In this document: one piece after another, positions 1 through 22,681 of the stretch
Layout: every line of letters begins with the position of its first letter
How positions within the stretch are numbered: position 1 is the first letter of the stretch
Source: Plumapathes pennacea
Taxonomy: Eukaryota > Cnidaria > Anthozoa > Antipatharia > Myriopathidae
Assembly: GCA_964036295.1 (NCBI GenBank)
Contig: OZ038462.1
Span: forward strand, 36,989,680-37,053,679
DNA: 64,000 nt
Direction: 5' to 3'
The notes under the pieces: model-generated
Told to the model about the DNA's origin: nothing
Databases searched by the model: none
What the model saw: only the letters and a program-made list of their open reading frames with translations
Program-made: the position numbers and the translations under genes

Positions 1-1987
1 CAAAAGGAGACGCGGGACAGAAGGGAGATGTAGCTGCTGCTGGACCGATTTCTCCTGCAAACTGGAAACAGTGCGTCTGGAATAACATAAACGATGGAAA
101 AGACAGCGGTAAAATCAAGGTCAATTATTTTTCTGATTGCTACGCAGATCGTTACGGACCACTCAATGGCATGTGACTAACACTAGTAGTTGCTTTCAGG
201 TTTTTTCACATAAACTGTGTTTTGAATGGCCTATTCAAGTAAGACCGACTTTATTGATCTCGAGTTTAGTTCTTTAGCAAAAACAAGAAATATCTTAGGG
301 CCCGTTTACACTAGGCAGTTAAAGCGATCTCAGATCGATCTCAGATCGATCCAGGCGTGAACGGTCGACGTTTCCTATAAGTGATCTCACATCGATCCAA
401 CTCAGCTCGCATTAGGAGGTGGTCTCAGATCGATCTCAGACCGATCCAAACTATTCCGCTTTAGGTGTGAACGTAACTGCGTGCTGAAAGTGGGCTGCCG
501 GAGAAATCACCAACTTCAGCGGAGGCAAATGAAACAAGTAAAACGAGTGGGATGAAAGACAAAAACTATATTTTACGGATGCATCATAAGTATGCGAAGG
601 TTGACCAGTCTTACTGTGTACTTTTGAAGAAAACAAACAGTGAAACACCAAAGCCATACCTGCTACTCAGCTCAATACGCATCTTGCCGACTTCATGAAT
701 TCAAAACAAAATGGCGGTGACCGCCGCCATCGTTTTAAAAGTAGTCCTGTAAGACTAGTCCCACGAAACTTTGTTGTAATGACAAGCAAAAAAATGACAT
801 CTTTTGGAAGACGGAAAATTCAAGAATTCAGGACTGAAAGACAACTGACTTACATGAAGATTGTTTCTGGCTCCGATGAGAAGCATCTTTCGCTAAAATT
901 TGAAGAAAACACGGTCGAGTTTTGCGAGAAAATCTGTTCGTTGCCATCCGTTTCAGCAAGTTACGAGAAACTTTCTGTATTAACTCCATGCTACTTTCCG
1001 CAGAGCTCAACCAGTTATCCTCTTCACCATTCACAAGTCACAGAGAAGAATTCAAACCACAAAAACTTTTCAGCCGTAGACTCAGTGATAAATTCACCTT
1101 GGCTGCAAACGTCAAATGCCCATCAAATTTGACAGCCGCGCTTGCAAAAATTATTGTTTACACTTTCATCCGCCATCTCAATCGCCGCGATCATGCCATC
1201 GCCAGAGGCAGAGCGCACGCGCAAGTGCTCGCCAGATGACAAAACACCCTGGCTTCTCCCCTGCCGGGAGATCAGTTTGTTTCAAATTTTACTCAAGTGT
1301 GAACGCGCGCCGATGCGAACTCAGTGTGATCTCAGTGCCAATCTCAGTACCGATCTCAGAAACGATCCAGGTGTGATCAGTATTCACCAAGTATTATCCG
1401 TGTCTAGGTACAATAAATCTTTATTGTCGTTCGGAGCATTATTTTGTGAGATGTATTACTTTTATTCATAGTGTTTTATCCTGAATAGCTACAGTGTTCT
1501 CATCAACTGTTTAGTTTCATTGGCCGAGTAATTATTAAGACTAAATGGATAATGATTTATTAGTGAAAACCACTTCCCATGCGTAAGGAGTGTATGCAAC
1601 AAATAGACTGCTCATTTAATTTTCTTAATCCAGGAATGCTCCTTCAACAAGCTGCAAGGCAGCACCGCACTCAAAGTATCCTGGCAAGGTAGCCTGCGCG
1701 TTATCGGAGATGCTCGTTGTAACCGCTGGTATTTCAAATTCAACGGAAATGAGTGCAGTGGACCCATGACAATAGAGGCTGCGGTCTATAACAACTGGTC
1801 ATCCGGGAACCCAGATAATCATCATCACCGCTCGTTTGAGGGTTACTGTGAGAACCTGCCACGTGGCGCGATTACCGTGGAACTCTGGGTAGGATCTTGT
1901 CCAAGTGGAGACACTCAAGGCGACGCTTACACAGGCAGGTTATCAGTGTCCCGGATCATGGTAGAGGAGGTGCCCAGGCCACAGTGA
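1..1987 (+). CDS. CTHRC1-like secreted collagen, gene 1 (5' partial)
   Basis: Two exons are visible: 1-119 (continuing from outside the window) and 1634-1987; the donor is GT at 120-121 and the acceptor is the CAG at 1631-1633, both phase 0. The first exon encodes the last Gly-X-Y triplets followed by PANWKQCVWNN. The last exon encodes 117 residues plus TGA and starts ECSFNKL. It contains RWYFKFNGNECSGP, EGYCENLPRG, VELWVG and the ending SRIMVEEVPRPQ. This is the C-terminal domain of collagen triple helix repeat-containing protein 1 (CTHRC1), a secreted trimeric matrix protein that modulates Wnt/PCP signalling in vertebrates; that role is not shown for cnidarians. The usually conserved Trp of the TGW-SVSR motif is Arg here (TGRLSVSR). 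The intron carries a transposon-like insertion (298 to about 1380). No reading-frame lesion is seen in the visible part. Confidence 0.88.
298..1380. mobile_element. Harbinger-like non-autonomous element in intron of gene 1 (3' end unclear)
   Basis: The left edge reads GGGCCCGTTTACACTA directly after a TTA, much like the element at 22902. The interior carries repeated GATCTCAGATCGATC words at both ends (about 326-450 and 1325-1372), in direct orientation. I could not find the matching inverted right terminus, so the right boundary is approximate and the element may be truncated. The ORFs inside show no recognisable domain. Confidence 0.5.
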
Positions 1988-2479
1988 TCAGTGCTCTTGT
2001 CACGTCAGCTTTTTTCAATATTGGCGATTTCAAAGTATTCATTTTGAGTTAATATTTAGCTATCATTGCAATTTCATTCTGTTTTAATTGGATTGTATTG
2101 AGTAAGAGAGTGATTGACTCGCGTTTTCGCGAAGTTGATTCTTCGAACAAATCATTAGATGTATTATATTCATTGTTTTCTTTTAACGTGATGCTGAGGC
2201 TGAAAGGAGCAGAGAGGTGTAGCACGTGCGGGCACTGCAAAACTCTAAGTTTAGGTTAATTTTTGTTACGCTTTACGAAGTGTCCAATCCGATATGTTTA
2301 TCGCTTGTTGTCATCATTTTGATGATGCTGAAGAAATCGTGTCTATGTTGAAATGCTTGAACTTAACAGCACCTTAAGAAAATGAATAAATTGTTCAGTA
2401 CATTTTAACTGTAAATTGATCTCAGTCTACTGTGGTGTATATATCATGTATGTTTCTATGGGATATTGGAAGAGTTTAA
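1988..2479. other. 3' flank of gene 1, no gene seen
   Basis: AT-rich sequence after the stop of gene 1. The first 100 bases resemble the 3' flank of gene 3 (12455-12560), so they are part of the old duplication unit. The only ORF here (minus, 2049-2240) has no recognisable feature. Confidence 0.5.
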
Positions 2480-2935
2480 GGTGCACTTAAGCCCAAAAGT
2501 GATATCTTTACAATCGAATCTACATGACGGAAATATGTTGATTATTAGAATAAGTCTGCGTTTCAACGCTGCGCCTTTGAGTTATAAAGGTTTATATTTT
2601 GAATATGGTAATGACGTGACGTCAAAGAAGGAGCAATTTATTATACAAATCTTGTTGGCAGAGATAATTGACATTTTATCAACGTCCATTTTATATTTGA
2701 ATTCTGTGTAAATGATTTTACCAAATAATTTGTATGAATCTGGAAACAGTTCCAATCACGAAGAGAAAGAAATAACATTGAATTACTCCTTTGATGTCAC
2801 GTCATTACCATATTCAAAATATAAACCTCTATAACTTATAGGTGCAATGTTGAAACACAGAAATAATCTACTAGTCAACTATTTACTTTATGTAGAATCG
2901 ATTGCGAAGATATCATTTTTGGGCTTATGTGCACT
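2480..2935. mobile_element. MITE with about 150-bp inverted ends and TTAA target duplication
   Basis: The left arm (about 2480-2637) and right arm (about 2786-2935) are inverted copies: GGTGCAC-TAAGCCCAAAA at the left pairs with TTTTGGGCTTA-GTGCAC at the right. Both sides are flanked by TTAA (2476-2479, 2936-2939). TTAA duplications are typical of piggyBac and Kolobok superfamilies. It carries no transposase; a non-autonomous element. Confidence 0.75.
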
Positions 2936-2939
2936 TTAA

Positions 2940-3368
2940 AGGAAGATAAAGAAACCGGTACAGATGCTGATCTTAAAGTTGCTTCTACTGGCCTTTTCAC
3001 TGAAATGTCAGTGTACGAATGTTCAGTGCATTTTTAATAGCGAATTTACAGTGAGCAATAAAGTAACCCAACAAACAACGTAAAAAAACGTCTCTGATCT
3101 TTGTGCCGTGCCGCGTTGTACTTCAAATTATGCTTGTTAAAATTGGAAGTATAGTAAGAGGACTGGTACAGTTGGCAATGAAAATACTCGCCATTTACTG
3201 TAACTTAAACTGACGGTTCGTTAAAATCAAACTTGCAATGAATACGTAACAGTGGCATAATTTAAATTTGGCAGCATTATTACCAAGCTAAAACAAAGAA
3301 TACTTTACAAGATACTTTGAACTTGTTCGATAAAGCACTCCCAACCTACACTATGCAAAATGAGAATA

Positions 3369-3402
<34 letters not shown>

Positions 3403-4559
3403 TCAAGATTCGCTGACATAATATTTTAGTCATCTTCATTGAGTATCAGAAAAAAGTTGTTTTAGCATTTTCGAATAAAACCGACAGAAGTTTTGTTTCC
3501 CGTTTCCGAAACAATAAAGTTTAGTAAATTAACCTCAATATCGTACTTCACATGTGCCTAAAAACGATAACACCAAATCTATAATCTGTCGTCTAAGACC
3601 TTTACAACGATATATAATACGTGCATATAATACGTGTATATACGTTAAATTGTAACGCTACAATAATTTTTTTCCCGGAAGGGGCGCGCGAACCTTTCAT
3701 CGAGACCGTAGGGGTTTGACTGTATTACAGTTCTCCTCAAAATTTTGGGTGGGAGGGTGCCGCCAGGGACTGAAAACCCTTACCCTAATTCAGACCAAAA
3801 TTGGCAATTTTCAACCCTATTTCAGACCAAAATGTGCAATTTTCGACCCAGTATCAAAATATAGTATCAAAGTATCAAAATCTTCGACCCTATTCCAGAT
3901 CAGAAGGTTAAAATCGATACCCTATTTCAGATTAAAATACTGAAAATGATACCCTTTGGGACGGCACATACCTATATGGCTCATATATGGGTATACTTAC
4001 TCCCCCCCCCCCCCCCCCCCCCTTACCCCTCCCCAACCCAAAACGAGCTAAAACAAAGAATACTCTATAAGATACTTTGAACTTGTTCAATAAAACACTC
4101 CCAACCGACATTATGCAAAAAGATGCTGGGAAGTAGGGTTTTTCTTTGAGAATAGGCTAAGTAACGCTAGACAGCTTGGTTCACTGTTAACAGGCTTATA
4201 TTTGTTTGAATTCCTGATTTGTTAGTTTTACATTTATTTTGTAAACCACGTTATGACAATTAATGGGTGAGTTCAGAAACCGGGCGATTCTATACTCACT
4301 GTGGCACTGTCAAATCATTCGGCTCAGAAGTTGTTCTAGTATGCCGTTGTGTTCTCGATCTCGCCTTTTTTGTTCAATTTTTAATTTTGCTTTGTTTTGT
4401 TTTTGCATGGAACTTATGATGCCTGTCACACTGCTAATTTTGACTGTTTGATCGGCACAGCACATAAATTAGACAGCTGTACATGACGGCAGCTATTGAC
4501 AGACGTAAAAACGAGGAAGCACTTAAGACGTTGCATCAAACATTATTCGGCATTTTAGA
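2940..4559. repeat. Gene-free stretch with 75-bp direct repeats, homopolymers and a minisatellite
   Basis: A 75-bp segment at 3286-3360 recurs in the same orientation at 4046-4120 with few changes. Between them lie an A27 run (3374-3400), a degenerate minisatellite built on TTTCAGACCAAAAT-type words (about 3779-3955) and a C21 run (4002-4022). The 3716-3943 ORF is just the minisatellite. No coding potential is recognised up to the gene 2 promoter. Confidence 0.6.
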
Positions 4560-4758
4560 TCTAAAGGAAGTACTTTGACTCTAGATGACCTCGTTTTAGA
4601 TCTTCTCAGTCATGTTATTTGTCAAAACCATCTTTCCCGTGATCCTTTTATCTTTTCCGTTTGCGAGGAAAAACTGGAGGCGCACACTGCAGTGTTCAGT
4701 TTGTGAATCCGTTTCGTTATTTCCGTAGATGAGGCGAGGTTTTTCGTGAAACTTCGAC
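4560..4758 (+). promoter_or_regulatory. Proximal promoter of gene 2 (diverged paralogous block)
   Basis: This block aligns by eye with the regions just upstream of genes 4, 5 and 6: CTAAAGGAAG, then TTTGACTC, GATGACCTCG, TTTAGAT, a GCACACTGCAGT word and finally AACTTCGAC immediately before ATG. The inverted CCAAT box (GATTGG) present in genes 4, 5 and 6 is degraded here (ATTTGTC), which makes this the most diverged member. Confidence 0.55.
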
Positions 4759-6463
4759 ATGAACAGTAAGACATCATTTGCCATCCTTACACTTCTGTGT
4801 GGTTTAAAATTTGTATGTTGCCAGCAGAAATCAACGAGTCCGCCAGCAAACAGCAATAACGGCCTTGGAAAGTGCGAGGTAAGTGGCTGGAATACAGGCC
4901 GGTCATGATCCGTTCAAACGCATGCCAGCTGTCGTGGGCTGACCATAGGCCGTATATGTTCTTACGCTCAGAAGACATTTTCACCCTCCTTTCCTCAATT
5001 TTTAATTGTATTTAGTGATTTCTTGTGTAGGTAATAACACTTTGTTCCTCTACGATCAAAACGTAAACCAATCCACATTCCATCATGACGGTGTTCATAA
5101 TTAAATTTGTTTACACCAACCTTGTCTTATCAATGAATAAAATCATAATTTCATTGATACATTTTAATTGTTCGACTACAGCAACAGGGCGCAGTTTTTC
5201 AGTATTATTTTAACATAATAATAATAATAATTAAATAATAATGATTATAGTTATTCTGGGTATAGGGCTCATGATAAAATACGAGCAAAAGCTTGTATTT
5301 AAATGCGGTCCGCGCTATGACAGCCGCTTCAGTGCAGATATATTTACTACGACACTGTACGCGTTCTTTACCCTCGGCTCAATGAAATGCTTAATGGACT
5401 GCAAAATATGTTTACCTAATTCCATTGATTACAGAACTAATTCACTGTGGCACTAATATTACCCCTGTATGCTAATTATGATTTAGACTTCCTGTGTAAA
5501 CGGAATCCCAGGGATACCAGGTGCAAATGGCGTGCCGGGGCTTCCCGGGCACAATGGTCAACGAGGAGACAAAGGAGAAAAAGGATCTCCCGGCGGGCCA
5601 AAGGGATCACAGGGGAAGGAAGGAGCTGAAGGTGCGAAGGGGCAGCAAGGATCCCCGGGAAAACCAGGACCAAGGGGGCCGATGGGAGCGAAAGGAGAAC
5701 AAGGAAATCCGGGAACAAAAGGAGACGCAGCTGCTGCTGGAACGATTTCTCCTGCAAACTGGAAACAATGCGTCTGGAAAAGTGATGAAACCAAAGACAA
5801 CGGTAAAATCAAGGTAGGTGTAATGGCACTAGCGTGTCACCATGACTGCCAGTTGTTTGGAAATGCGCAAGAAAGTACAAGTACAATGTGATAAAATTAG
5901 GAATTCTTTTTACAAAATGACTTTTATTTGTAAGTTTTCTTCCCGTTTGTTCAAGGAGAAGAAATTGTGTTGATTATCTATACAAGACATTTTTATAATT
6001 CGACTTTTACGGACTGGGAATGGTGTCAGTTGAGTTCTAAAGTAGTTGCGGGGCAATTCGGTGATTACGGTCATCAAATGGAACTGGATCACGTACAGGA
6101 AAAAACGGCCTCCATTATCATTTTAATAATTTTATTTTTTGTGTGTGTGTGCGGTAAAGGCCAAATATTAATCAAAAGGGAATATAACTGTACCATTCTT
6201 TAACCAGCCAGAGTATGTAATGAACATCTTAAATGAAGCAAAAGTCAATATCCAGTCAATCAATAGTTAACTTATACAATAGATCACATCTAGAAATCCA
6301 GTACATTTCTAAGAATATACAATCACTAGGTGTATGTTATCACAACTGTAAACAGGGGCTCTCCTCGAAAAGCCCAACAGGGTTTCCTGAGAGCTCCTGC
6401 TCCTATTTATCAAGTGTAAAATAGAAACACTATTGTAAAAATATATTCAATAGGGCAAATAAA

Positions 6464-6540
<77 letters not shown>

Positions 6541-7212
6541 TATTATTATTATTATTATTAATATCACTTCTGACTAACTTAAAGTTCTCTTTTTAGGAAT
6601 GTTTCTTCAACAAAACGCAGCAAAATACAGCACTAAAAGTTTCCTTCCAGGGAAACATGCAGGTACTTGGAAACCATTTCTGTAACCGCTGGTATTTCAA
6701 GTTCAACGGGCAAGAGTGCAGTGGACCCATGACCATAGATGCTGCCGTCTACAATGGCTGGTATTCCAGGAACGTGAGTTTAAACGTCTTGTGTGGGCTG
6801 CGTGCGTGCAGGTGTGTATGTATATTTTGCACGTGACTGTGTGTTCAGATGTCTGAACATTAGTGTGTGCCATAATGTCTACCTATCTCGACTCACATAT
6901 ACCTTATATCATTTTTAGATAATCAGCTTGATTAGCTTCAATCTCAGCTATTTTGCCTATCTTTCGACAGACCAGTTGGTCTTTTCCAATCTTTGAACTA
7001 TAGCAATTGTTGTTGACGATAAGCTTAAACCTCAGAACCCACAGCTTCTTCACCACCGCTCGTTTGAGGGCTACTGTGAGAACCTGCCACGTGGTGTGAC
7101 CACCGTGGAACTCTGGGTAGGGATATGTAAAGGCTCGAAACAAGGCAACGCTCACACGGGCTGGAACTCAGTGTCCCGGATCATGGTGGAGGAGGTGCCC
7201 AAGTCCCAGTGA
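4759..7212 (+). CDS. CTHRC1-like secreted collagen, gene 2 (intact, four exons)
   Basis: Exons 4759-4878, 5487-5813, 6597-6773 and 7036-7212, all joined in phase 0 with GT-AG introns; predicted 266 aa. The first exon encodes a signal peptide (MNSKTSFAILTLLCGL) and ends in KCE. The second encodes SCVN followed by 25 Gly-X-Y triplets with one extra Gly (GSP-G-GPK), then PANWKQCVWKS. The last two encode the CTHRC1 C-terminal domain (ECFFNKT, RWYFKFNGQECSGP, EGYCENLPRG, TGWNSVSRIMVEEV). All sibling genes encode that domain in a single exon; here a 262-bp intron splits it after AGG AAC, and the codon AAC is repeated just after the acceptor. Likely a secreted trimeric matrix protein. The start was chosen because the AACTTCGAC-ATG context is shared with genes 4 and 5. 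Confidence 0.87.
6465..6560. repeat. TTA/ATT trinucleotide microsatellite in intron 2 of gene 2
   Basis: About 95 bases of almost perfect TTA repeat ending 35 bases before the exon at 6597. It is likely length-variable between individuals. Confidence 0.9.
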
Positions 7213-7836
7213 CCCAGTGCTTACACGTTTCCGAACTACGGTTCAGTGATTGGCGTTCGAAGAAACGGACCAAACGTTCGAAATATCAGATAGATAATTT
7301 CAGTCGTTTTGAACATTTATAGTTTTATGGAGCTTCACTTCAATCTGTTAGATAAACAAGTTCGGATCATTTGTAAACTCATCACACGGCACACCTAGTT
7401 TACAGAACGTATAATTTTGTTTCAATTTGATTTATCATGTCATTAAACTGCTGAACAGTACAGCTTGGTTATTTTGTTGGTTCCCCCTTTAGCTGAGCCC
7501 TGGATCTGAATCTCCAGCTGTTGGTTAGTTAATATCATTTAATTGGGAAACCAAGACAAAGTGCATGTTCTGAATTATTCTTTGACAACATTGTTTAGAA
7601 ATATATATTCTCCTAATCATTTGAGAAGGCAGCCTGTCAACGATGATTCAGTAATTGATAGGCCAATCAGCCTTTATCTCCAGCACCCACTGATTTGTTA
7701 TATCTTTTCAGCGACGTATACGGACGTGAGAGACATCAGGAGTCAAGCGGTTAACAAAAAATGACTAACGTTTCAGAATAAGTTGGTAAACTTAACGATA
7801 ATTCAGCAAATCAAAGTTAACCAGATGAACTGTTTA

Positions 7837-9299
7837 TCCCCGAACGAAGTGAGGGAAATATTTACGACGCTAATGCATCATAGTCGGCTCATTTGAAGAC
7901 TCCAAGCGCGTCGCCATCTCGAAATCTAATGTTCGTGTGTTTGTTTGTGTGTTTGTGTGTTTGTGCGATGCGACCTTTTTAGGCCAGGTGCCTAAGGCAA
8001 TGTCCAAATAAGGCTATCGACGCGTCACCGCCATGTTTTTAAGAAAGATTTGAACAAAGCAACAATTGTACGTAACTGCGCTCACGAAAATGAATTGAAA
8101 ACTAGAAAACTTGAAACAGAACGGTCTCGCGAAGCTCGTCTTCAAAAGAGAAGGGAACAGGCACTTCAAGAGCAAAAGCGGACCGAAGAAAAGACTCCGC
8201 AGAGAAAACAGCGCATGAATGCCGATCGAAAGCGACATGAAGAGAAGCGGGTAACACAGACAACTCCGCAAAGAGAACAGCGCTTGAAAGCGAATCGAGA
8301 CCTTCAGGAGAAAAAGCGGGCCGAAAAGAAGACTCCGCAAAGACAACAGCGCATGAATGCCGACCAAAAGCGACATGAACAGAAGCGGGTAACACAGACA
8401 ACTCCGCAAAGGGAACAGCGCTTGAAAGGAAATCGGGAGCTTCAGACGCCGTTTTGTGTTAAACTCAGATACTTATTTAGAAAGGACAAGCAACAAAGGT
8501 TAGTCAGTGGAAATCGAACAATCACCGTGACAAATATATTCTATCCCGTATAGCTTGTAACTCGGTCACTTCAAGAATGTATTAAAATCTGTATGCTGAT
8601 CATTTTCCTTCGAAGTATTGTTTTACTACGCTTCTGTCGCCAGTTTCGGCTACCGTATTTGCTCAGAGCAATCGGAACTTGGAGCCTTGAATGATTTAGT
8701 CAGATGTCTTATTTTTCTGTAATCTGACACGCGGTGATTGCAGCGAGAATCGTTCACAAGCCCTTAGAAGTATTACTGGGTCTGAAGCCCGTGTATAATT
8801 TGAAGTAAACTGTTCAAGTTTTGCTTTGATTCTGGGAGAAATCTTGCTGTTTTGAGTGGGTTCACATGCAAAACAATTCGAGCCTATTAAATATGCATGC
8901 CTGAGTCTGGTGAATGCCTTCCAGAGTAAAATCAAATCGCACAGGAAGCCTATTTAATTGTACTGCCTATGAATTCAAAATTAGAAAATCAGTGTTCCTT
9001 TTTTACCAACTTCAAACTTTGAGTATTAAATTTTGAGAACGTGCTTGGCAGACTGTATGAATTAATTTGACGTGCCGACCGTGGGAAATACGTACTTCGT
9101 CACGCAATCGATTCTTTTTTCAACGCAAAAGTATAACACACCATTCTTTTTCTCCTTCCTTTGCGTGTAGCACTTGAGTTCGAAGAAAAGATTGAGTCGT
9201 CATTTCGGTAAAACAAAGGCTACTCTTGTTGGGAGTTACCAAAGTAAAAGTCCCATCAATGGCAGAGTGAGGGGGTTTCTACGATTATCGTATTTCTAG
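7837..9299 (+). mobile_element. Non-autonomous Helitron-like element, copy A
   Basis: The element begins TCCCCGAACGAAGTGAGGG after an A (7836) and ends TTATCGTATTTCTAG before a T (9300). That is the Helitron signature: 5' TC, 3' CTAG (CTRR), insertion between A and T without target duplication, and a short hairpin near the 3' end (cleanest in copy B, where GCGATAATCGC is palindromic). An ORF (8050-8553) encodes repeated arginine-rich units of the type TPQREQRLKANRELQ, which resemble the N-terminal part of eukaryotic Helitron Rep-helicase proteins. It has no Rep or helicase domain. Copies B and C are siblings. Confidence 0.75.
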
Positions 9300-9819
9300 T
9301 ATTTATATTAATCCTCTTGTCATCTTTGAGTCTATAAATTGTATTTCAGAATATGGAGGGCAACCTAGTATAAGCCGTTAATTATTTCCTTGCGTTGATC
9401 ACAAAACGCTTTGTGAGCAGATTCCCGTCTTTTGGCACCAAATGGCCCTATTGCGGTCAATTTAGACAACAACATATGAAAGACACCTCTATGGGCCGGA
9501 CCTGGTTTTGTTGGCCCTAGCCAGTGGAGTTTTACAATGTTTGTCTGTATCATAATCCATAAGCCGGACACTGTAGTTGTTCTACCATTCATACTTTAGT
9601 TTGCCTGTACACAATAATACGGCTGAAGTTAAGCATTGGATGGAAGTGAAGATTCAAAAAAAGACATACCAACCATATCAAATTGCTGATGACTTCCAAC
9701 TCCATAACATAATGAGATGTTTTCAGGATCCAGGATCTGTTGCTTATTAAATGAAAAAATGAGCTATAAATAATTTTACCTTTTAAAGTACAACATTTTA
9801 ATTAACCACAAGGCTCAAG

Positions 9820-10253: not shown

Positions 10254-12454
10254 ATGGTCCACGCAGCACCATTCGTCGTTTTCGTGCTCCTGTGCGTTGT
10301 ACAAACTAGCGTTTGTCAAAAGACCACCCCAACCCCTCCAGTGAAGAATGAAGACAAGTGCCATGGATGTGAGGTCAGTGAAACGTGTCGATTTTGTCCG
10401 TGTTGGGTTTGCGACGACTTATATGCGTTTAGCGGTTTAATCGAAGAGATTACACATGCTTCAAAATAAGACAGCGCAGAACCCAGCTGTTTAAAACACA
10501 CTTAGGCGAAATCTGTATTTTTCGCCTTTAAGTCTGAAAACGGAAAAGTCCCTCTCGGAATAATTTTCTTGATATGTTTTGAGATAAAACAATCTTCTTT
10601 TGTGGCTTTGATCAGAACCCTGCAGTATTTGGCTAATCCTGGTTTAAACTGCTTCATTGTGCGAGATTTAGACAACCAGGGCAATTAAGCTATTGGAGTT
10701 AACGGAATAATAATAACTATTCACAAAGTAACATCAGATATGCATTTAATGGAGGAAGCAATATTATGAAGTGGATTAATTTGCCAAACATATTTTGGTG
10801 TTGTCAATCATTTTGAGATATTAATTTTTTCTTCTTCTTCACAGAGTGTCACACATGTCCGTGTACAAGCGGAATGCCCGGTATCCCAGGAGCCAACGGA
10901 ATGCCGGGAATACCAGGACCTTACGATACCCGCGGTGACAAAGGAGACAGCGGTGATCAAGGAAAAACCTGGGACAAAAGGAGACAGCGGCCTGCAAGGA
11001 ATTGTGGGCAATCTAGGATCAAAAGGACCCCAAGGAGACAAGGGAGATCGAGGATCCAGAGGACAAAATGGATCTCCAGGAAAAACGGGACCCGGCGGAG
11101 CGAAGGGAAACAAAGGAGAACAAGGAAACTCCGGGAAAAAAGGAGACGCGGGACAGAAGGGAGACGCAGCTGCTGCTGGACCGATTTCTGCTGCAAACTG
11201 GAAAGAGTGCGTCTGGAAAAACATCAACGATGACAAAAACAGCGGCAAAGTAAAGGTAAGGTATTTTTCTAGATGTTTCACAGATCGTTTGTTTTACGGA
11301 CTAGTAATGTGGTTAATTTCCATACATAATTTTATATACTTCATTTTAGAAATGAACAATGCAAGCATGGTCGAGTTTATTGACCTCAAATTTAGTTTGT
11401 CGAAGCCAAATAAAGAACAAATTCCAGATCAGCGGCTCACAATATCATTTGTTTCTTTTATGGCAAACGGTTTGAACCCAGGAGTGTAAACAGTAGGTCG
11501 GTCGAGTTGGTTTGGTTGTGTTTCGTTATTAGTCAGTTGATGTTCTGTTGTCCTGCATGTCATTTTGTCTATTGTTCGGTTGCGTTTGGTGTCATCTATC
11601 AGTCGTTTGTAAGGTGCAGGTAATTGTTGGCATCTGTTGAGAGGTTTTCTTCTAAGTTTGTGACTCGACCAACCATAAGACGATAAAACGGATCAATCAC
11701 TTCAACGACAAGAGACACAAATACCGCCATCTGACAAATCCTTTCACTTGAGTCCAAAGATTACTTCCGCTCAGGGAGTCGAAATGCCAGTCACCAGCAA
11801 CAGTCCTCCTGGAGACTACTCTAACCCGGACAATTACAACCAACCCATTGTTTCTTTGATATAAAAAGAATTGATTTTCTCGTAAATTTGACTCATTTTA
11901 CTGTGTTTTAGTTTTCACTATGCTTTATCCTGAACAGCTACGGTGTTCACGTGAAGTTTCCTTTCTTGGTGAACAAATACTTTGATTATTATACTACCTG
12001 ACTGAATGGATAATGATTCATTATTAAACTATCAACTGCTTCCCATGTGTAAGGAGGACTATGCAACAAATAAACTGCTCTTTTTAATTTCTTAATCCAG
12101 GAGTGTTCCTTTAACGAGCTGCAAGGCAACACCGCGCTCAAAGTCTCCTAGCAGGGTGTCCTGCGCGTTGTCGGAGATGATCGTTGTAATCGCTGGTATT
12201 TCAAGTTCAACGGAAATGAGTGCGGTGGACCCATGACTACAGAAGCTATTGTCTACAACGACTGGTCATCCGGGAACCCGAATCTTCATCACCACCGCTC
12301 ATTTGAGGGCTACTGTGAGAACCTGTCACGTGGTGCGATTACCGTGGAACTCTGGGTAGGATCTTGTCCAAGTGGATACACACAAGGCGACGCTTACACG
12401 GGTTGGACCTCAGTGTCCTGGATCATGGTAGAGGAGGTGCCCGGGCCCCAGTGA
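10254..12454 (+). pseudogene. CTHRC1-like gene 3, broken by a frameshift and a nonsense codon
   Basis: Exons 10254-10373, 10847-11255 and 12101-12454. Exon 1 gives a signal peptide (MVHAAPFVVFVLLCVV) and ends HGCE. Exon 2 starts CHTCPCTSGMPGIPG and continues in Gly-X-Y triplets, but an A5 run at 10963-10967 shifts the frame: upstream triplets are in one frame, the rest of the collagen and NWKECVWKN are in another. Exon 2 is 409 bp, one more than a multiple of three, while intact siblings are exact multiples. Exon 3 starts ECSFNEL and has TAG at 12149-12151 where siblings have Trp or Phe; the rest is intact apart from SRIM to SWIM. Two separate lesions make this a pseudogene. A homopolymer error could explain the frameshift but not the stop. 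Confidence 0.85.
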
Positions 12455-12860
12455 TCAGTTGCTCTTTTCAAGTCATTCGTTTTCATTATCGGCGATTTTA
12501 AAATATTCATATTGAGTTAATATTCAGTTTTCATTGCAATTTTAATCTGTTTTAATTGGATTTTATTGAGTATAATATTTCAATTTATCAGATCCAATTT
12601 CGCCTCTCCTCTATAAAAAGAAAAGCCAACCAAAACGAGTTTGACCAGCAAGAACGGCTTTTCAGCCGGATAATGCTGTAGATATTCTGGTTCAATCTGT
12701 TTTCCAGTTATTGATTTTGAGAGTTGTCAGTTATAACGAAAACTTGCGTCGCAGGCTATGAACTCAACTTAGTTTTAGGTCGCTAAATAATCCAGGCTTA
12801 TTGTGCATGAACTGTGGAAACGCAACTAACCCAACTTATTCATGTACAAGTAACTACATA

Positions 12861-14214
12861 CTAGAAATGCGATAATCGCAGATACCCCCTCACTCTGCCA
12901 TTGATGGGACTTTTACTTTGGTACTCCCAACAAGAGTAGCTTTTGTTTTACCGAAATGTTGACTCAATCTTTTGTTCGAAGTCAAGTGTTATACGCAAAG
13001 GAAGGAGAAAAAGAATGGTGTGTGTTATACTTTTGCGTTGAAAAAAGAGTCGATTGCGTGACGAAGTACGTATTTCTCACGGTCGGCACGTCAAATTAAT
13101 TCATACAGTCTGCCAAGTACGTTCTCAAAATTTAATATTTAAATTTTGAAGTTGGTCGGCCGTCGTAGTGCGGGAAAAAAGGAACACTGATTTTCCAATT
13201 TTGAATTCATAGGCAGTACAATTAAATAGGCTTCCTGTGCGTATTGTTTTTACACTGGACTGCATGCACCAGACTCAGGCATGCATATTTAATAGGCTCG
13301 AATTGTTTTGTATGTGAACCCACTCAAAACAGCATGATTTCTCCCAGAATCAAAGCAAAACTTGAACGGTTTACTTCAAATTATACACGGGCTTCAGACC
13401 TAGTCATACTTCAAAGAGCTTGTGAACGATTCTCGCTGCAATCACCGCATGTCAGATTACAGCGATTGTTACAGTTTTAGTCTTCACAAAAAAAATAAGA
13501 CATCTGACTAAATTATTCAAGGCTCCAAGTTCCGATTGCTCTGAGCGAATACGGTAGCCGAAACTGGCGACAGAAGTGTATTAAAACAATACTTCGAGGG
13601 AAAATGATCAGCATACAGATTTTAATACATTCTTGAAGTGATCGAGTTACAAGATACGGGTAGAATATATTTGTCACGGTCCTTGTCCTTTCTAAAGAAG
13701 TATCTGAATTTAACACAAAACGGCGTCCGAAGCTCCCGATTTGCTTTCAAGCGCTGTTCCCTTTGCGGAGCCGTTTCTTTGGCACGCTTCCGTTGATGAT
13801 GTTGTCGGTTATAACATGTTTGTCGTCTTTTCTCTAGAAGTATTTGGCGCTGTTCGATCGTTTCACGATTTCGCCTTGCCCGTGGTTGTTCCCTTTTCTT
13901 TTGAAGATGACCGTTCTGTTTCAAGTTTTCCAGTTTTCAAATTCATTTTCGTGAACCTGCGTTCGTACAATTGTTGCTTGGTTCAATTTTTTTTCTTCCG
14001 AATGTCAGTAAAAACACTGGCGGAGACGCTAATCGATAATTAGGCACCTGGCCTAAAAAGTCGTACACCAGACAGACTGCCTGACTGACTGACTGACTGA
14101 CTGACTGACTGACAGACGAACATTAAATTTCGAGATAGCGACACGCTTGGAGTCTTCAAATAAGGCGATTTTGCTGCATTAGCGTCGTGATTATTACCCT
14201 CGCTTCGTTCGGGA
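12861..14214 (-). mobile_element. Non-autonomous Helitron-like element, copy B (inverted)
   Basis: On the minus strand the element runs from 14214 (TCCCGAACGAAGCGAGGG) to the CTAG at 12861, followed by T on that strand. The palindrome GCGATAATCGC lies 5 bases before CTAG, a clean 3' hairpin. Minus-strand ORF 13622-13924 holds the arginine-rich repeat (EQRQILLEKRRQ, PQREQRLKANREL). A CTGA tetranucleotide run lies near 14081-14112. This copy shows the empty site for the MITE that sits inside copy C. Confidence 0.72.
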
Positions 14215-14879
14215 ATAATTATTTTGAATTACTAGTTGCAGCCTATCCATTTGGGGGAATGAGACATTCTCTGTAACATTTTGCGGACCTTGTCAGATTA
14301 GAGTCCATTTAGTGGTGTTTGAGTAATGGTACAACTTGTAAAATACATTTGTAAATGTTTATTGAATTGACACCAGTATTTGATGGGCCGTTGGTGCTTT
14401 CATTTGAGCGTGGATAACAAAACAACACGCTATATATTAATCAGTTGATTCGAATGCACATAAACCGCAAGGCGTGTAAACAATAATGAGAAAGCAGAGG
14501 TCTTAAAGAGTAGGACTTTGTAAAGGTAAATATTTTTCTACTTTCTATACATTCTGTTTCAAAATTACAAAAGAATCTATTTGGGTTCCCGAAATGAATG
14601 CAACCAACCCCTAGCACCCCACAACTTACTGCCGCCCGCCTGACAGCTCCAGTCTACTTACAGCGCAAACTATCGTCGTTCGGTTACAGTTGGCCTTGTT
14701 AGTCAACATTCTCTGACTGAGTAGCAGAGTTGCAGAGTTGACTGAACCAAAATTTGCATTAGCAGGGAAGCGTATCGTGACAGCATACAAAAGCGTGCGC
14801 TTGACCCGAATCAAAACATCATACCGGGTGCTGACGTAAACCAAAGAAGCAGTTCAGCGGCAGATTATTTGTTTCAGCT
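14215..14879. other. Gene 4 distal upstream region, no gene seen
   Basis: No coding potential recognised. From about 14829 the sequence (GCTGACGTAAAC, AAGCAGTTCAGCGGCAGATT) is shared with the region upstream of gene 6 (53152 on), so the duplicated promoter is longer between genes 4 and 6 than between either and gene 5. Confidence 0.5.
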
Positions 14880-15090
14880 TTAAAGGAAGAAGTTTGACTC
14901 CAAGTGACCTCGCTTTAGATTTTTTACAGTTTTTGATTGGTCAAAACTGTCATCAATAGCTTCCTGGAGTGCCTTTTAACTTCCGTTTGCAACAAACAAA
15001 TGAGCCAGGTTGAAAGTGCACGCAGCAGTTCTTGAAGTGGCGCTGACAGTGACACGTCTCTTTTTTTCTGTTCTTTAGAGAAACTTCGAC
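14880..15090 (+). promoter_or_regulatory. Proximal promoter of gene 4
   Basis: A block of about 210 bp shared with genes 5 (21212-21418) and 6 (53201-53419): TTAAAGGAAGAAGTTTGACTC at its start, GTGACCTCGCTTTAGAT, an inverted CCAAT box GATTGG at 14935-14940, GCAACAAACAAATGAGCCAG, CAGTTCTTGAAGTGGCG and AAACTTCGAC right before ATG. Its conservation against a diverged background suggests regulatory use. No TATA box is obvious. Confidence 0.6.
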
Positions 15091-16870
15091 ATGGATTACA
15101 AGGCAGCATTTTTCATTCTTGCACTGCTTTGTGGTCTGGCAATTGCATCGAGTCAGAACAAATCAAAAACTCCGCTGGAAAACATTATCAACCGCAGCGG
15201 ATGCGAGGTAAACACAAATTTAACTTTACGCTCCATGGTCATTGCCTGTTCACTATACTCATGGCCTACAGTTATTTTTGGTGTCTTTTTCATTCATTTT
15301 TCCTCCTTTGTGCCAGTTTACTGTTTTCTTTTTTTTTTTCTTGTTTTACTTGTACATTTTTCCAATTTGTAAACTGACGGTAATTATCCCCGTCCCCTTC
15401 GTCTGAATTTTGTCACGTCCGATCCGATTTCCCCACGGCGGAACGTCTGCGGAACGAAACGCCTGCGTTTCAGGCTACATGAAGCCGGTCTGCATTAATT
15501 TGTTTACGACTTAAGGTGGAAAATGGATTCTCACTGCATGCTTAAAAGTTGTATACTTTATCATCTGATAAGGCTAAGACCAAAATTGATGGATCGATTA
15601 ATGTTGTTGTGAGACAACATGTTTGAGTTCAATTCAGAGTTTTTGCATTCACTGCATGATTAGTCCATATCCCTACTTCTTTGTATTGAAAGTTCGATTG
15701 AACTACTACAAGATTAAGCGACTCTGCGGCTCAATTTTGAAAAACAGTGCTAATTCTTCGTCAAAAACAAAAAACCAGCTGAAGAATATTGCTTTGCACT
15801 GAAACTTTGTTTGAGATAAATATTTCAGTTTCTAAGTCAAATATTTAGAAAAGACAACGAGGTCACTAAAACGAAAGCAATTACCTAAGCCAATAAGAAG
15901 CCTAGTACCTTGTCTTGGTGCTTTGATCATGTTAAGCTCAATGACTATTATGTCGACACTGGCTTGAGTAAACGTTTATAATAACAAGTAAGTTTTTCCC
16001 GTGGTGAGTTAAAGTTCCTTTCCTCGCTGTTTTCACAGAGAAGATCCTGCTCTTGTATCAACGGAATGCCTGGCATGCCTGGTATGCCTGGTATGTCAGG
16101 AATGCAGGGACTTCGAGGTGACAAAGGAGAACAAGGGGACCATGGAGAGAAAGGCAACCCTGGAGCCAAAGGAGACAAGGGAGACGCATCTGCTGCTGGG
16201 CCAATCCCTGCTTCAAACTGGAAGCAGTGCGTCTGGAAGGACTTAAACGCCAACACCGACACTGGCAAAATAATAGTGAGTAGATACACTGTCACTATAA
16301 TTTTAGATGGAGCAAAGCGACAATTTCCTTGAGTTGAGTTGTGATTTAGTTTGACCTCTAACTAAAGGACCATGCGATGTTTTAGTGGGTTACAGTGGCG
16401 TATGGCAGTGTGCAAAGCTATATATGTATTTAACATGAGAGAAACCTAGAGGAGAAAAGTACCTCAAAGCACGAAGATAACAGGGAATGAAAACTCATAA
16501 TTTAACACTGTCTCTTCAGCAATGTCCGTTTAAAAAGCTGCAAGATAACACAGCACTGAGAGTGGCATTCCAGGGAGACATGCGGTCTATGACAAATCAT
16601 CACTGTAGTCGCTGGTATTTCAAGTTCAATGGAAATGAGTGCAGTGGACCCATGACCATAGACGCTATAGTCCTTGGTCGTTTCCCATCTGGTGACCCAA
16701 ATATTCATCGCCCCGGTTCGCTTGAGGGTTACTGCGAGAACCTGCCACGTGGTGCGCTTACCGTGGAACTCTGGGTAGGGCCCTGCAGGGGATATTCTCA
16801 AGGTGACGCTTACACGGGTTGGCGGTCAGTATCCCGGATTATGGTGGAGGAGGTGGCCAGGCCTCAGTGA
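15091..16870 (+). CDS. CTHRC1-like secreted collagen, gene 4 (intact, short collagen stalk)
   Basis: Exons 15091-15207, 16039-16275 and 16520-16870, phase 0 throughout, predicted 234 aa. Exon 1 encodes the signal peptide (MDYKAAFFILALLCGLAIAS) and ends SGCE. Exon 2 encodes RRSCSCIN, then 14 Gly-X-Y triplets, five of which begin Gly-Met or Gly-Met-Pro, and ends with ASNWKQCVWKD. Exon 3 encodes QCPFKKLQDNTALRVAFQGD, RWYFKFNGNECSGP, EGYCENLPRG, TGWRSVSRIMVEEVARPQ. About 240 aa matches the usual size of vertebrate CTHRC1. With gene 6 it forms the short-stalk subgroup (exon 3 begins QC rather than EC). Expected to be a secreted trimer in the extracellular matrix. Confidence 0.9.
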
Positions 16871-17999
16871 AAGAGTTAAGGGGCAGTACCGATCTGAAAT
16901 TTTTTGAATGGTACTACAACGCTTAACTTAGTGACGTTTCAGTAGATTGTAGAGATAGCTCTGTATTAAGACCCGTGTTTTTCACTTTAAACTTTCTTGA
17001 CAATGGCAAGGGGCTGTTGCCCTTATTAAAGTACTTTGTGTAGAAGCTCGTCTTAACAGTTGATATTTTTCAGTTTTAACTGTTAGTTTTCTTTCCGTTT
17101 CAAGTATAACGAGCCAACCCGATAGAAGAAACAGTAACAGTGTATTACATTGTTAAAGTAACCCATCCTCAGGCCGCTTGTCGTGTCATTTTTCACTTTT
17201 ACACCTCAGTCGGATAGTTATAGAAAATTTATGCTTTTAGGTACAATAATACAATAGCTGGACTGAGTGAATTGTATTAGAATTTTATAGAGATTCTAAA
17301 CTCTTGCTGAGATCTTCGCAAGTCGCACCCCATCCCACCCCCTCCCAGTACCGAGTCAGTCCTGCTGTGGGGGTCGCATCAATTCAAACAAAGAGTTATC
17401 AGTTACCAGACTTAATTTCACACACTGTCAGATAAAATAGAGCACTTTGGATGTCCAACATTTTCACGTCCGTTAATAGCTATTGGTGCACTACTGCGAC
17501 TTCGATACACTCAAAGTTACAGAACGCGAAGAGCAGGATATCGAGTTGCCTCTATCAGGTAATAGCTGTTCTAATTCCGTGTGTTTGTCACAAGACTTGG
17601 GGTAACGGAACAGGCACATTTATGTCCTTTATCTTTGGCTCTGCGTTTGTACTTCTTGCCACGCGTGCACTTAATTTTGGTGAGAAAAAGTCCACATAAA
17701 ATGGAGCAAATGAAGTTATGAAATTAAATAAGAAAAACCAACCGTAGAATGTTTTGCTCGGGTGAGAAGCCAACGCTCAAAAAGTCTGTCAATACTTCTT
17801 TACGGCACTCAGCATGCCCACTTATCACAAAACTTTACATTGATACACTCTAAATTTCACCGCTCTACACCAACGAAGACAAAACTTACTGTTTTGGGTC
17901 CTACAGCAATGGGCTCTTTGCACGGGATACACTTAAGTTTACTATAAAAAAGTACTCTCTGGCAAAAGGATTAAATTTGGGCAATGATCATTTAAGGTG
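16871..17999. other. Intergenic stretch after gene 4, no gene seen
   Basis: Only short unrecognised ORFs (for example 17451-17699 plus). No repeats with clear ends were seen. Confidence 0.45.
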
Positions 18000-18478
18000 T
18001 ATACATGCAGAAACCTACTCCTCCTGTTTGTCTCAGTTCATCCTTGTGATTGGTCAGAAATGAACACCCGTTATCAACAACTCGCCTCGTGCACAGGTGC
18101 TAGCCACGTGATGATGAACAACTGATACATTCCCTGACCCTGGCGTAACTTTCTTTTCTCGCTCTTCCTATTTATAGTTGCAATAAGCTCAAGGAACATA
18201 ACCAACAGTCCAAATATGCAAATACACCAAACAAAATAGACTCAGTTAGATGGGGAATGCGTCAAGGTGACGCTGGCTGGTAAGAAGATTCAATAAGTAT
18301 ATGATAGCTAGAAGAAAACAAAATCTGGCACAATGGGGAAAACGCGCAAACTTCTGTTCCCGACTCTGAATGCATCCATGCTTCTGATTGGTCAGAGTGA
18401 AAGTTATACCCATTATCTGCTGTGGTTTGATAAGCAGCTGACACAAACCCTGATCAGTCAGTTGAGCCACACTATCTA
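18000..18478 (+). other. Orphan copy of the gene 3 promoter region, lacking exon 1
   Basis: Two blocks match the gene 3 upstream region in order and orientation: 18010-18130 matches about 9835-9955, and 18340-18477 matches about 10080-10205, including CTTCTGATTGGTCA and TGTGGTTTGATAAGCAGCTG (18421-18440). The match stops at TCAGTCAGTTGAGCCA, just before the transcript start. It then jumps to a short match of sequence from the first intron of gene 3 (TATTTGGCTAAT, about 10617), as if exon 1 had been deleted. No CTHRC1 exon follows. Confidence 0.65.
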
Positions 18479-19149
18479 GAGGAATTATTTGGCTAATTCT
18501 TGTTTAGCTCAGTGACCAGGAGTTCTGTTCTTTCTGTTATGATCGAGTTAGCAATACTTTGACTAAAAAGAGGCCACTTGCCATTTTCCCGAGGGTGGCC
18601 GCTTAATAGGGGTTTGAATGTATTAAAATTTCCCCGAATATAATTAGAGCATAATCGGAACAGATCATTAATTATATTGGATACTTTTATAATTGGCAGT
18701 TATAATACTGTAACAAACTTGAAATATAATTGCCATGAAAGGAGAATATTTAAGTGTAAGTCTGGTTTAACTTCTTCAAAAGAAAAAATATCCCAAAATA
18801 TCCCAATTGTTTTAATATTCGAACTTGATTGAGCTTTCCACTCAGAAATTTCTAGTACGGCCACTCAAATAGAAACCTCTCTCAATCAATACACTCTCAA
18901 ACGGTTTATAAACAGAGATTAACCACGGCTGGCACGAGCATCGCAGCTGACATAAAAAGAAAAATGTTTCAATAATTGTGTGTTGGACTGCAATTCAGTT
19001 AATTATTTGTCTCTTGGTATTAATGCGCACAAAGCATATGGCCTTCCAATTCCTTCTTTCTTTGTAATTCAATTCAATTTCAATTTATAATTTCCCTGTA
19101 CATGTGCATCATATCACAATCAATAGAATTGTAAAAAAGGAAACATTAA
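18479..19149. other. Gene-free stretch before Helitron copy C
   Basis: AT-rich, no recognisable ORF or repeat ends. Confidence 0.45.
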
Positions 19150-20631
19150 TCCCCGAACGAAGTGAGGGAAATAATCACGACTCTAATGCATTAATTTGAA
19201 GACTATGTCTTAACTATGTCATTAATTTGAAGAGTGTGGGACCTTTTAGGCCAGGTGCCTAAGGCAATGTCCTAATAAGGCAATTACGTAATCACTGTCG
19301 ATTTGAACGAAGCAACAATTGAACTGCGTTCACGAAAATGAATTTGAAAACTAGAAAACTTGAAACAGAACGGTCTCGCGAAGCTCGTCTTCAAAAGAGA
19401 AGGGAACAGGCACGGGCAAGGCGAATTCGTGAAACGATCGAACAGCGCCAAATACGTCTAGAGAAAAGACGACAAACATGTTATAACCGACAGCATCATG
19501 AACGGGATCGTGCCGAAGAAACGGCTCCGCAAAGGGAACAGCGCTTGAAAGCAAATCGGGAGCTTCAGACGCCGTTTGTGTTAAACTTAGATACTTATTC
19601 AGAAAGGACAAGCAACAAAGGTTAGTCAGTGGAAATCGAACAATCGCCGTGACAAATATATTCTACCCGTATCTTGTAACTCGATCACTGCAAGAATGTA
19701 TTAGAATCTGTATGTTGATCATTTTCCCTCGAAGTATTGTTTTAATACGCTTCTGTCGGCAGTTTCGGCTACCGTATTCGCTCAGAGCAATCGGAACTTG
19801 GAGTCTTGAATGATTTAGTCAGATGTCTTTTTTTTTCTGTCAAAACAAAAACTGTAAAGCCTGGTCCTCACTAGCGCATAAGCATAAGCATAAGCGTAAG
19901 AATAAGAGAGCGAAGGAACGGATGTGTTTGATCTTTATGCTTATGCTTATGTCGCCACTGTCGCTCTCTTATTCTTATCCTTATGCTTATGTTTATGCGC
20001 TAGTGAGGACCAGGCTTAACAAATGCTGTAATCTGACGACATGCGGTGATTGCAGAAGAATCGTTCACAAGCCCTTAGAAGTATCATTAGGTCTGAAGCC
20101 CGTGTATAATTTGAAGTAAACCGTTCAAGTTTTGCTTTGATTCTGGGAGAAATCATGCTGTTTGAGCGGGTTCACATACAAAACAATTTGAGCTCGTTAA
20201 ATATGCATGCCTGAGTCTGGAGCATGCAGTCCAGAGTAAAAAGAAATCGCACAGGAAACCTATTTAATTGTACTGCCTATGAATTCAAAATAGGAAAATC
20301 AGCGTTCCTTTTTTCCCGTACTACGACGGCCGACCAACTTCAAAATTTGGGTATTAAATTTTGAGAACGTGCTTGGCAGACTGTATGAATTAATTTGACG
20401 TGCCGACCGTGGGAAATACGTACTTCGTCACGCAATCGACTCTTTTTTCAACGCAAAAGTATAACACATACCATTCTTTTTCTCCTTTCTTTGCGTGTAA
20501 TACTTGACTTCGAACAAAAGATTGAGTCAACATTTCGGTAAAACAAAGCTAGGCTACTCTTGTTGGGAGTACCAAAGTAAAAGTCCCATCAATGGCAGAG
20601 TGAGGGGTATCTGCGATTATCGTATTTCTAG
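19150..20631 (+). mobile_element. Non-autonomous Helitron-like element, copy C
   Basis: Starts TCCCCGAACGAAGTGAGGG after A and ends GCGATTATCGTATTTCTAG before T, as in copy A. The ORF at 19338-19625 encodes the arginine-rich N-terminal repeats (EQRQIRLEKRRQTCYNRQH, PQREQRLKANRELQ). It carries the nested MITE at 19858-20016. Confidence 0.75.
19858..20016. mobile_element. 159-bp MITE with about 58-bp TIRs and TAA target duplication
   Basis: The ends AGCCTGGTCCTCACTAGCGC and its complement continue inward through GCATAAGCATAAGC-type repeats to GAGAGCG. It is flanked by TAA on both sides (19855-19857, 20017-20019). Helitron copy B keeps the uninterrupted site (CTGTAACAA on its own strand), which confirms both boundaries. 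Three-base TAA duplications fit the PIF/Harbinger superfamily. Confidence 0.85.
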
Positions 20632-21211
20632 TTTAATTCTGCCCTTACTCATCGTTTTTCTAGTTTCACACCTCAGGGTGTCCGGCACTCGTCAGGTTGT
20701 ATAAAACTTATATTAGTTCACAACTAAGTGACAGTTCACTTGAATTCATTGACCCATGTTGTTTGGCTGTTGGTGAATTAATTTTGTGACTTTCAAATGC
20801 TACGTGTTGAATTCAAATATGAATTGACTTCCGGCCTCACATGAGACTTATACGCTCACTGTGACCATGTGCGGAATTTAAATGATTTTTTGTTTCTTTG
20901 AAGGAGCAAATAGAAGCCTTCAAAACTCCAGTCTCCAAAGTCATACTTCATTGACAGAATCCATATCCAGCGGAGTTGAACATCGCTCTTATTGATGCCG
21001 CTGTTGTTACCAGTCTCTCTCGCGTGTACCTTACTCGTACGTTATGTCGGAGCATGGTGTACCTATTGCTGTAAAGGGATGAATGATCGATTTCAACTGT
21101 GACTTTCAAACAAAAGCGTGCGGTCCAAATCAACACATCAAACTCCTTACGTCATTCTAGCAGCTAAACAAAGAAGCAGTTCAGCATTCTGCATCAAATT
21201 ACCTGTTTCAG
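20632..21211. other. Gene 5 distal upstream region, no gene seen
   Basis: No recognised ORF. From about 21160 (AAACAAAGAAGCAGTTCAGC) it aligns with the upstream regions of genes 4 and 6. Confidence 0.45.
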
Positions 21212-21418
21212 ATTTAAAGGAAGAAGTTTGACTCTCGATGACCTCGCTGTAGATTCTTCGTAGTTTCTGATTGGTAAAGACTGTCCGTTAATAGCTTCCC
21301 ATATGCCTTTTAACTTCCGTTTGTAACAAACAAATGAGCCAAGCTAAAAACGCACACTGCAGTTCTTGAAGTGGCGCTGACAGTGACTTGTCTCTTTATT
21401 TTTTAAAGAAACTTCGAC
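21212..21418 (+). promoter_or_regulatory. Proximal promoter of gene 5
   Basis: The same block as upstream of genes 4 and 6: TTTAAAGGAAGAAGTTTGACT, GATGACCTCGCTGTAGAT, inverted CCAAT GATTGG at 21269-21274, AACAAACAAATGAGCCA, CAGTTCTTGAAGTGGCG, AAACTTCGAC before ATG. Confidence 0.6.
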
Positions 21419-22681
21419 ATGGACTACAAGGCGTCATTTGCGACCGCTAGTCTCTTATTTCTGTGTGGCCTACAAATTGCATCGTGCCAGAATAAATCAA
21501 GGACTCCGCTAACAAACAGTGGCAGAAACCATGGAGAGTGTGAAGTAAGTTCAAAACTTTAGGCTGCATGGTCATTATTTAGGGCCCCAGAACTCTTTAG
21601 ATTAAACATTTTTAAATTCCTGTCTTCCATTGATTTCAGTTTGAAACCGAAAGCAATAGTGAAATATATTCAACTGCCACTTGATGTTAACTTTAATGTA
21701 TAATCATGTTTCACTTCCTCTTCACAGAGGGTCGCGTATCCCTGCACAGGTGGAATGCCTGGTATTCCAGGAGCCAACGGTATGCCGGGAATGCCAGGAC
21801 CTTACGGTGCCCGCGGTGATAAAGGAGACAGCGGGGCTGCCGGCAATCCAGGACCAAAAGGACCCCGAGGAGACAAAGGAAATCGAGGATCCAGAGGACA
21901 AAATGGATCTCCAGGAAAAACGGGACCAGACGGAGTGAAGGGAAACAAAGGAGAACAAGGAAACTCCGGGGCAAAAGGAGACGCGGGACAGAAGGGAGAC
22001 GCAGCTGCTGCTGGACCGATTTCTGCTGCGAACTGGAAACAGTGCGTCTGGAAAAACGGCGACAGCAAAGACAGCGGTAAAATTAAGGTCAATTATTTTT
22101 CTGATTGTCACGTACTTAATCATGTGACTAACAATAAAAGTTGCTTTTCAGGATTTTCACATCAACTGTGTTATTTTGAATGGTCTATGCAAGTAAGACC
22201 GAGTCTTTCTTTGGTTAACAATTGCTTTCATTATTATATGAATAGGTAACTATATTCACTGAAAATCACTTCCCGTGCGTAAGGAGAATGCAAGAAATTA
22301 CTAACTACTCATTTTAATTTCTTAATCCAGGAATGTTCCTTCAACAAACTGCAAGACAACACCGCACTCAAAGTATCCTTCCAGGGGAACATGCGCGTTG
22401 TCGGAAATGTTCGTTGTAGTCGCTGGTATTTTAAGTTCAACGGAAATGAATGCAGTGGACCCATGACAATAGAGGCTATTGTCTACAACCACTGGGCATC
22501 CGGGAACCCGAATCTTCATCACCACCGCTCGTTTGAGGGCTACTGTGAGAACCTGCCACGTGGCATGATTAACGTGGAACTCTGGGTAGGCTCGTGTAGT
22601 GGACAAACTCGAGGCGACGCTGACACGGGCTGGAACTCAGTGTCCCGGATCATGATTGAGGAGGTGCCCAGGTCCCAGTGA
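21419..22681 (+). CDS. CTHRC1-like secreted collagen, gene 5 (intact, longest collagen stalk)
   Basis: Exons 21419-21544, 21728-22087 and 22331-22681, all phase 0, predicted 278 aa. Exon 1 encodes the signal peptide (MDYKASFATASLLFLCGLQI) and ends GECE. Exon 2 encodes RVAYPCTG then about 28 uninterrupted Gly-X-Y triplets rich in Lys, Asp and Glu, then DAAAAGPISAANWKQCVWKN. Exon 3 encodes ECSFNKLQDNTALKVSFQGN, RWYFKFNGNECSGP, EGYCENLPRG, TGWNSVSRIMIEEVPRSQ. This is the cleanest member of the long-stalk subgroup and its collagen exon is the best template for reading pseudogene 3. Secreted, presumably trimeric, extracellular matrix. The collagen triplets and the C-terminal motifs together make the family call secure. 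Confidence 0.92.

Follow-up and report, generated by a model that had tools for sequence, protein, structure and literature searches.

A tandem cluster of CTHRC1-type genes with short and long collagen stalks in Plumapathes pennacea

Why do neighbouring genes for one kind of short collagen carry stalks of very different length? The question is raised by a 64,000-nucleotide stretch of the antipatharian Plumapathes pennacea (assembly GCA_964036295.1, contig OZ038462.1, positions 36,989,680 to 37,053,679, forward strand; hereafter the window, to which all copy counts refer). It holds six CTHRC1-type genes, g1 to g6, all on the plus strand and head to tail, five of them in 1-22681 and the sixth at 53420-55474. 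The locus is very probably an ordinary cnidarian birth-and-death gene cluster, and the short-stalked g4 and g6 and the long-stalked g2 and g5 are most simply read, from their sequences, as two lineages in which stalk length follows descent.

The domain CTHRC1_C (PF25815) was found at all six loci and the Gly-X-Y stalk domain (PF01391) at the five whose stalk exon lies inside the window. In the spliced g2, g4, g5 and g6, PF25815 reached 150-163 bits (cut-off 27), with PF01391 N-terminal to it in all four; it scored 117 bits in exon 3 of g1 and 94.6 in exon 3 of g3 past its stop codon. A six-frame hmmsearch of segments of at least 12 amino acids with an exon-3 profile gave eight matches above the inclusion threshold in the 64 kb, each part of one of the six genes. 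The genes span 4759-7212 (g2), about 10254-12454 (g3), 15091-16870 (g4), 21419-22681 (g5) and 53420-55474 (g6), and 30.7 kb separate the end of g5 from the start of g6. The initial annotation was thus right about the CTHRC1-like family and the tandem arrangement. Its five copies in 22 kb with a sixth 31 kb further on stand as plus-strand loci with matched domains, but not as five working copies, g1 being cut by the window start and g3 being pseudogene-like.

Exon lengths in g2, g4, g5 and g6 are multiples of three, and their N-termini look hydrophobic by eye only, which bears on a putative signal peptide. Stalk-exon stretches of g2, g3, g4 and g5 match PF25815 profile positions 3/4 to 28/30, and exon-3 stretches of g1, g2, g4 and g5 start at position 21-25 of 137, some intron codons being included in both cases; in g6 an exon boundary lies at the equivalent place within the domain, as judged by eye. 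The parts of the six genes, all on the plus strand, are as follows.

3..119, plus: g1 exon 2, 3' tail only (translation KGDAGQKGD...GKIK; GT boundary as in g5; exon start outside the window)
1634..1987, plus: g1 exon 3, CTHRC1_C, open (PF25815, E=1e-33)
4500..4758, plus: g2 conserved proximal upstream block (from alignment, 67-70% to g4, g5 and g6)
4759..4878, plus: g2 exon 1, hydrophobic N-terminus and Cys (GT donor, phase 0)
5487..5813, plus: g2 exon 2, stalk (PF01391, E=2.8e-13)
6597..6773, plus: g2 exon 3, first part of CTHRC1_C (PF25815, E=4e-16)
6774..7035, plus: g2 extra intron-like stretch of 262 bp inside CTHRC1_C (GT..AG ends; exact acceptor inferred)
7036..7212, plus: g2 exon 4, remainder of CTHRC1_C (spliced protein PF25815, E=7.1e-46)
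10254..10373, plus: g3 putative exon 1 (open reading frame (ORF) and GT donor)
10845..11255, plus: g3 exon 2, stalk in two frames (limits inferred; PF01391, E=1.7e-14)
12101..12454, plus: g3 exon 3, CTHRC1_C with in-frame TAG at 12149-12151 (PF25815, E=8.2e-27 for the part past the stop)
14830..15090, plus: g4 conserved proximal upstream block (from alignment)
15091..15207, plus: g4 exon 1
16039..16275, plus: g4 exon 2, stalk (PF01391, E=1.9e-09)
16520..16870, plus: g4 exon 3, CTHRC1_C (PF25815, E=3.4e-37)
21158..21418, plus: g5 conserved proximal upstream block (from alignment)
21419..21544, plus: g5 exon 1
21728..22087, plus: g5 exon 2, stalk (PF01391, E=1.1e-16)
22331..22681, plus: g5 exon 3, CTHRC1_C (PF25815, E=4.4e-41)
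53160..53419, plus: g6 conserved proximal upstream block (from alignment)
53420..53536, plus: g6 exon 1 (Tyr replaces the last exon-1 Cys of g2, g4 and g5)
54567..54809, plus: g6 exon 2, stalk (PF01391, E=6e-10 in the spliced protein)
55124..55474, plus: g6 exon 3, CTHRC1_C (PF25815, E=5.7e-44 in the spliced protein)

A recount of exon 2 gave 14 Gly-X-Y triplets in g4, 16 in g6, 28 without interruption in g5, and 25 plus one extra glycine in g2 (11 and 14 triplets with one residue in between), so that all four counts first annotated hold. The stalk of g1 is uncountable because the window start cuts the gene, and the triplets of g3 are divided between two frames, 6 and 22. Since both boundaries of the stalk exon are in phase 0 in g2, g4, g5 and g6, it forms a symmetric cassette whose length can change by threes and leave the rest of the gene unharmed. 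Among shifts divisible by three, which were the only ones tried, the stalk-exon DNA is most similar to itself at 9, 18 or 27 bases, and Tandem Repeats Finder reported periods of 9, 18 and 27, with 17 in addition in g3 and g5.

The relations of the copies point to two lineages. In a quartet test of g2, g4, g5 and g6, the topology ((g4,g6),(g2,g5)) had the highest likelihood in all three regions (upstream sequence with exon 1, exon 2, and exon 3), and the approximately unbiased test rejected both alternative topologies for exon 2 (p 0.001), not for upstream sequence with exon 1 (0.06) or exon 3 (0.11). In exon-3 trees of all six copies, g4 and g6 were separated from g1, g2, g3 and g5 with support of 92/96 for protein and 95/93 for DNA, the latter read as unrooted, and g1 was joined with g3 (89/91 and 94/91, respectively). 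Two points weigh against length following descent. The quartet test of exon 2 includes the stalk columns, and the exon-3 synonymous difference of g4 to g1, g2, g3 and g5 (0.46-0.48) is smaller than that between g4 and g6 (0.68), with overlapping intervals; these distances could hint at mosaicism of g4. A mosaic origin of g4 was rejected, as the quartet test prefers one topology in all three regions. Gene conversion in exon 3 was addressed with a run-length permutation test over 15 pairs (83 polymorphic sites at third positions, 177 at all positions), in which no pair was significant after global correction, the lowest corrected p being 0.52 at third positions and 0.07 at all positions; before correction, 7 of the 15 pairs fell below 0.05 at all positions (lowest g2-g5, 0.0055, and g2-g4, 0.0095) and none at third positions. 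Conversion between the copies is at most a possibility.

The heads themselves have diverged considerably. Amino-acid identity in exon 3 is 59-85% over all 15 pairs of the six copies, so that the nearly constant C-terminal domain of the initial annotation was too strong a description. Synonymous divergence in exon 3 runs from 0.27 to 1.82 over the 15 pairs, the higher values being near saturation, and the ratio of nonsynonymous to synonymous change (dN/dS) is 0.13-0.42, thus below 1, in every pair, those with g3 included. The six cysteines of the C-terminal domain are kept in g2, g4, g5 and g6, while the cysteines before the stalk differ among these four, g6 being without the last one of exon 1. 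The tryptophan of the TGW motif, present in the other five copies, is replaced by arginine in g1.

A history for such a cluster can be proposed. An ancestral CTHRC1 gene with a signal-peptide exon, a phase-0 stalk exon and a C-terminal-domain exon would have duplicated in tandem, and one lineage would have become short-stalked (g4 and g6) and the other long-stalked (g2 and g5), with g1 and g3 joining the latter by exon 3. Stalk length may have shifted through in-frame gain or loss of Gly-X-Y units, presumably by slippage eased by the internal 9/18/27-bp periodicity, and g3 would be a decayed copy. The intact products would be expected to be secreted, mostly homotrimeric and capped with a C1q-like head.

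Two copies stand apart from the others. With an in-frame TAG (12149-12151) 16 codons into exon 3, a stalk spread over two frames with the change near 10963-10967, and a differing first exon, g3 looks like a pseudogene; its putative exon 1 is unlike those of g2, g4, g5 and g6, the single weak match being g6 exon 1 (30%, E=0.019). From the usual acceptor onwards, its stalk exon (10845-11255) has one frame without a stop, beginning with about 40 codons that are not collagen-like, and might thus still give a headless product. In g2, the 262-bp intron-like stretch is missing from the other five copies and may be a gained intron. Its two ends resemble each other loosely, and a few bases at its flanks occur twice, as seen by eye. 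A transposon origin was considered and is no more than a possibility, the likeness of the ends being by eye only and no second copy of the stretch being present in the window.

A bolder reading, set out in the initial annotation, makes stalk length the selected trait, the copies being kept since differing lengths would set the spacing or valency of a secreted trimer. The four countable copies do have four different lengths, their stalk exon is a symmetric phase-0 cassette, and a wide range of repeat numbers is general in cnidarians, where Cthrc1 proteins are reported with 4-54 Gly-X-Y repeats (PMC7058181). However, length tracks the two lineages and therefore few independent changes are needed, heads and pre-stalk cysteines vary as well, and neutral slippage in the 9/18/27-bp repeat would yield an identical pattern. 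The trait singled out as under change is not borne out by this comparison, and we regard selection on stalk length as unlikely to explain the cluster.

Some of the genes may be regulated jointly. The block of about 255 bp ahead of the start codon, which takes in any 5' untranslated sequence, shows 67-89% identity in the six pairs among g2, g4, g5 and g6, while control alignments of introns 1 and 2, of sequence further upstream and of the 3' flank (four regions, six pairs each, aligned with a different MAFFT setting from the block) gave 34-51% in 23 of 24 cases, the exception being g4-g6 intron 1 with 71%. The upstream block has outlasted most intron sequence. Because it is conserved well above the controls, shared regulation of these four genes is plausible on sequence grounds, and if the copies are co-expressed, they would offer a convenient natural series for tests of the role of stalk length in a short collagen. 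The rise of the collagen triple helix is 0.286 nm per residue, from which stalks of about 12-14 nm and 22-24 nm are predicted for the two classes. One could imagine a co-regulated cluster making two stalk-length classes of one trimeric signal, kept class-pure by register and pre-stalk cysteines, in which one type of promoter would supply heads both nearer to and farther from an anchor in the membrane or matrix; we consider this improbable.

It is more doubtful still that hetero-trimers with mismatched stalks arise from co-expressed copies. The conserved upstream block suggests shared regulation, but it supports only the premise of co-expression and not the hetero-trimers; the geometry of a triple helix should not allow 14-16 and 25-28 triplets to keep register over their full length, and the copies also differ in their pre-stalk cysteines. 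Combinations inside one class, of 14 with 16 or of 25 with 28 triplets, are less implausible.

That the six copies are alleles or assembly duplicates of one gene, a possibility raised in the initial annotation, deserves hardly any weight: a contig with tandem near-repeats is known to be prone to assembly error, and the 81-86% similarity among g1, g3 and g5 extends into intron 2 and slightly beyond the stop codon, but the synonymous divergence in exon 3 makes alleles unlikely, and 13 of 15 intron and 3'-flank comparisons of g2, g4, g5 and g6, the pair g2-g6 being left out, had no blastn match (the other two were 133 bp at 72% in g4-g6 intron 1 and 22 bp in g4-g5 intron 1).

Among the other features of the window, a repeat family occurs in three inter-gene spacers in both orientations (7831-9305, 12855-14218, 19237-20632 and 46736-47300; pieces 69-94% identical), and about 247 bp of it are also found in g6 intron 1 (54241-54487); four ORFs of the family had no Pfam match. 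Between the array and g6, ORFs at 35988-37673 carry a PAN domain and, below the Pfam cut-off, an EGF-like match, and 43923-46243 holds an ORF with a GRDP-like domain (PF07173, E=4.2e-42) followed by another with a glycine-rich stretch. The window had no Rfam match at the gathering threshold and no tRNA.

What the cluster does can be approached from its relatives. Vertebrate CTHRC1 is a secreted glycoprotein linked to Wnt/planar cell polarity and TGF-beta signalling and to collagen deposition (PMC7058181), it is reported as dimers, trimers and multimers (PMC7441421), and GPR180 has been proposed as its receptor (PMC12716839). In cnidarians, a cthrc1 transcript is upregulated in the branch tips of Acropora cervicornis (PMC4320547), the pedal disc of Exaiptasia shows upregulation of two (PMC6626399) and Metridium under heat that of one (PMC12428564), and one cthrc1 is among the epidermis/gastroderm genes of a symbiotic cnidarian (PMC3141003). 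By analogy, similar roles may be expected for g1 to g6, whose intact products would be extracellular signalling or matrix modulators like vertebrate CTHRC1.

More distant comparisons start from the C1q/TNF-related short collagens (collagens VIII and X, adiponectin and the C1q/TNF-related proteins), with which the copies share a short collagen stalk and a C-terminal head, and to which a likeness of the CTHRC1 head fold has been proposed by modelling (PMC7058181). A difference is that no sequence match was found: a PDB sequence search with g5 exon 3 as its single query gave, up to E=1, only conglutinin (E=0.79), and no close solved structure. No relative elsewhere was confirmed among 80 pattern matches in viral contigs and 46 in genome contigs, with a query that held five of the six copies, g2 being omitted and g3 included only from past its stop. 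Vertebrate CTHRC1 agrees with the locus in family and domain order, but is mostly one gene with a fixed repeat number (12 in mammals), in contrast to six copies with 14-28 repeats in the four that can be counted here; that most vertebrates have one gene, the contrast drawn in the initial annotation, is already published (PMC7058181).

The closest known system is the cnidarian Cthrc1 family itself. Leclère et al. (2020, PMC7058181) reported that cnidarians have multiple genes, with as many as 31 in corals, that these form tandem clusters in Acropora digitifera, Nematostella and Clytia, and that stalk and domain change fast outside vertebrates; coral genomes are generally rich in tandem duplicates (PMC10236652). 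Among the matches listed in a literature search on Cthrc1 in cnidarians and corals, nothing came closer than PMC7058181. The locus shares with that family a putative signal peptide (here a hydrophobic N-terminus by eye), the variable Gly-X-Y stalk, the conserved C-terminal domain, the intron in the 5' part of the domain, the tandem clustering and the many coral copies. Expansion and variable stalk length are therefore already in print, and the locus is a tidy example of a known phenomenon. It differs in nothing categorical from what the accessible part of that paper describes, and it adds a decayed copy, the additional intron-like stretch of g2 and the upstream block common to four genes, making a clean small case of cnidarian Cthrc1 cluster evolution with two stalk lineages and one decaying copy.

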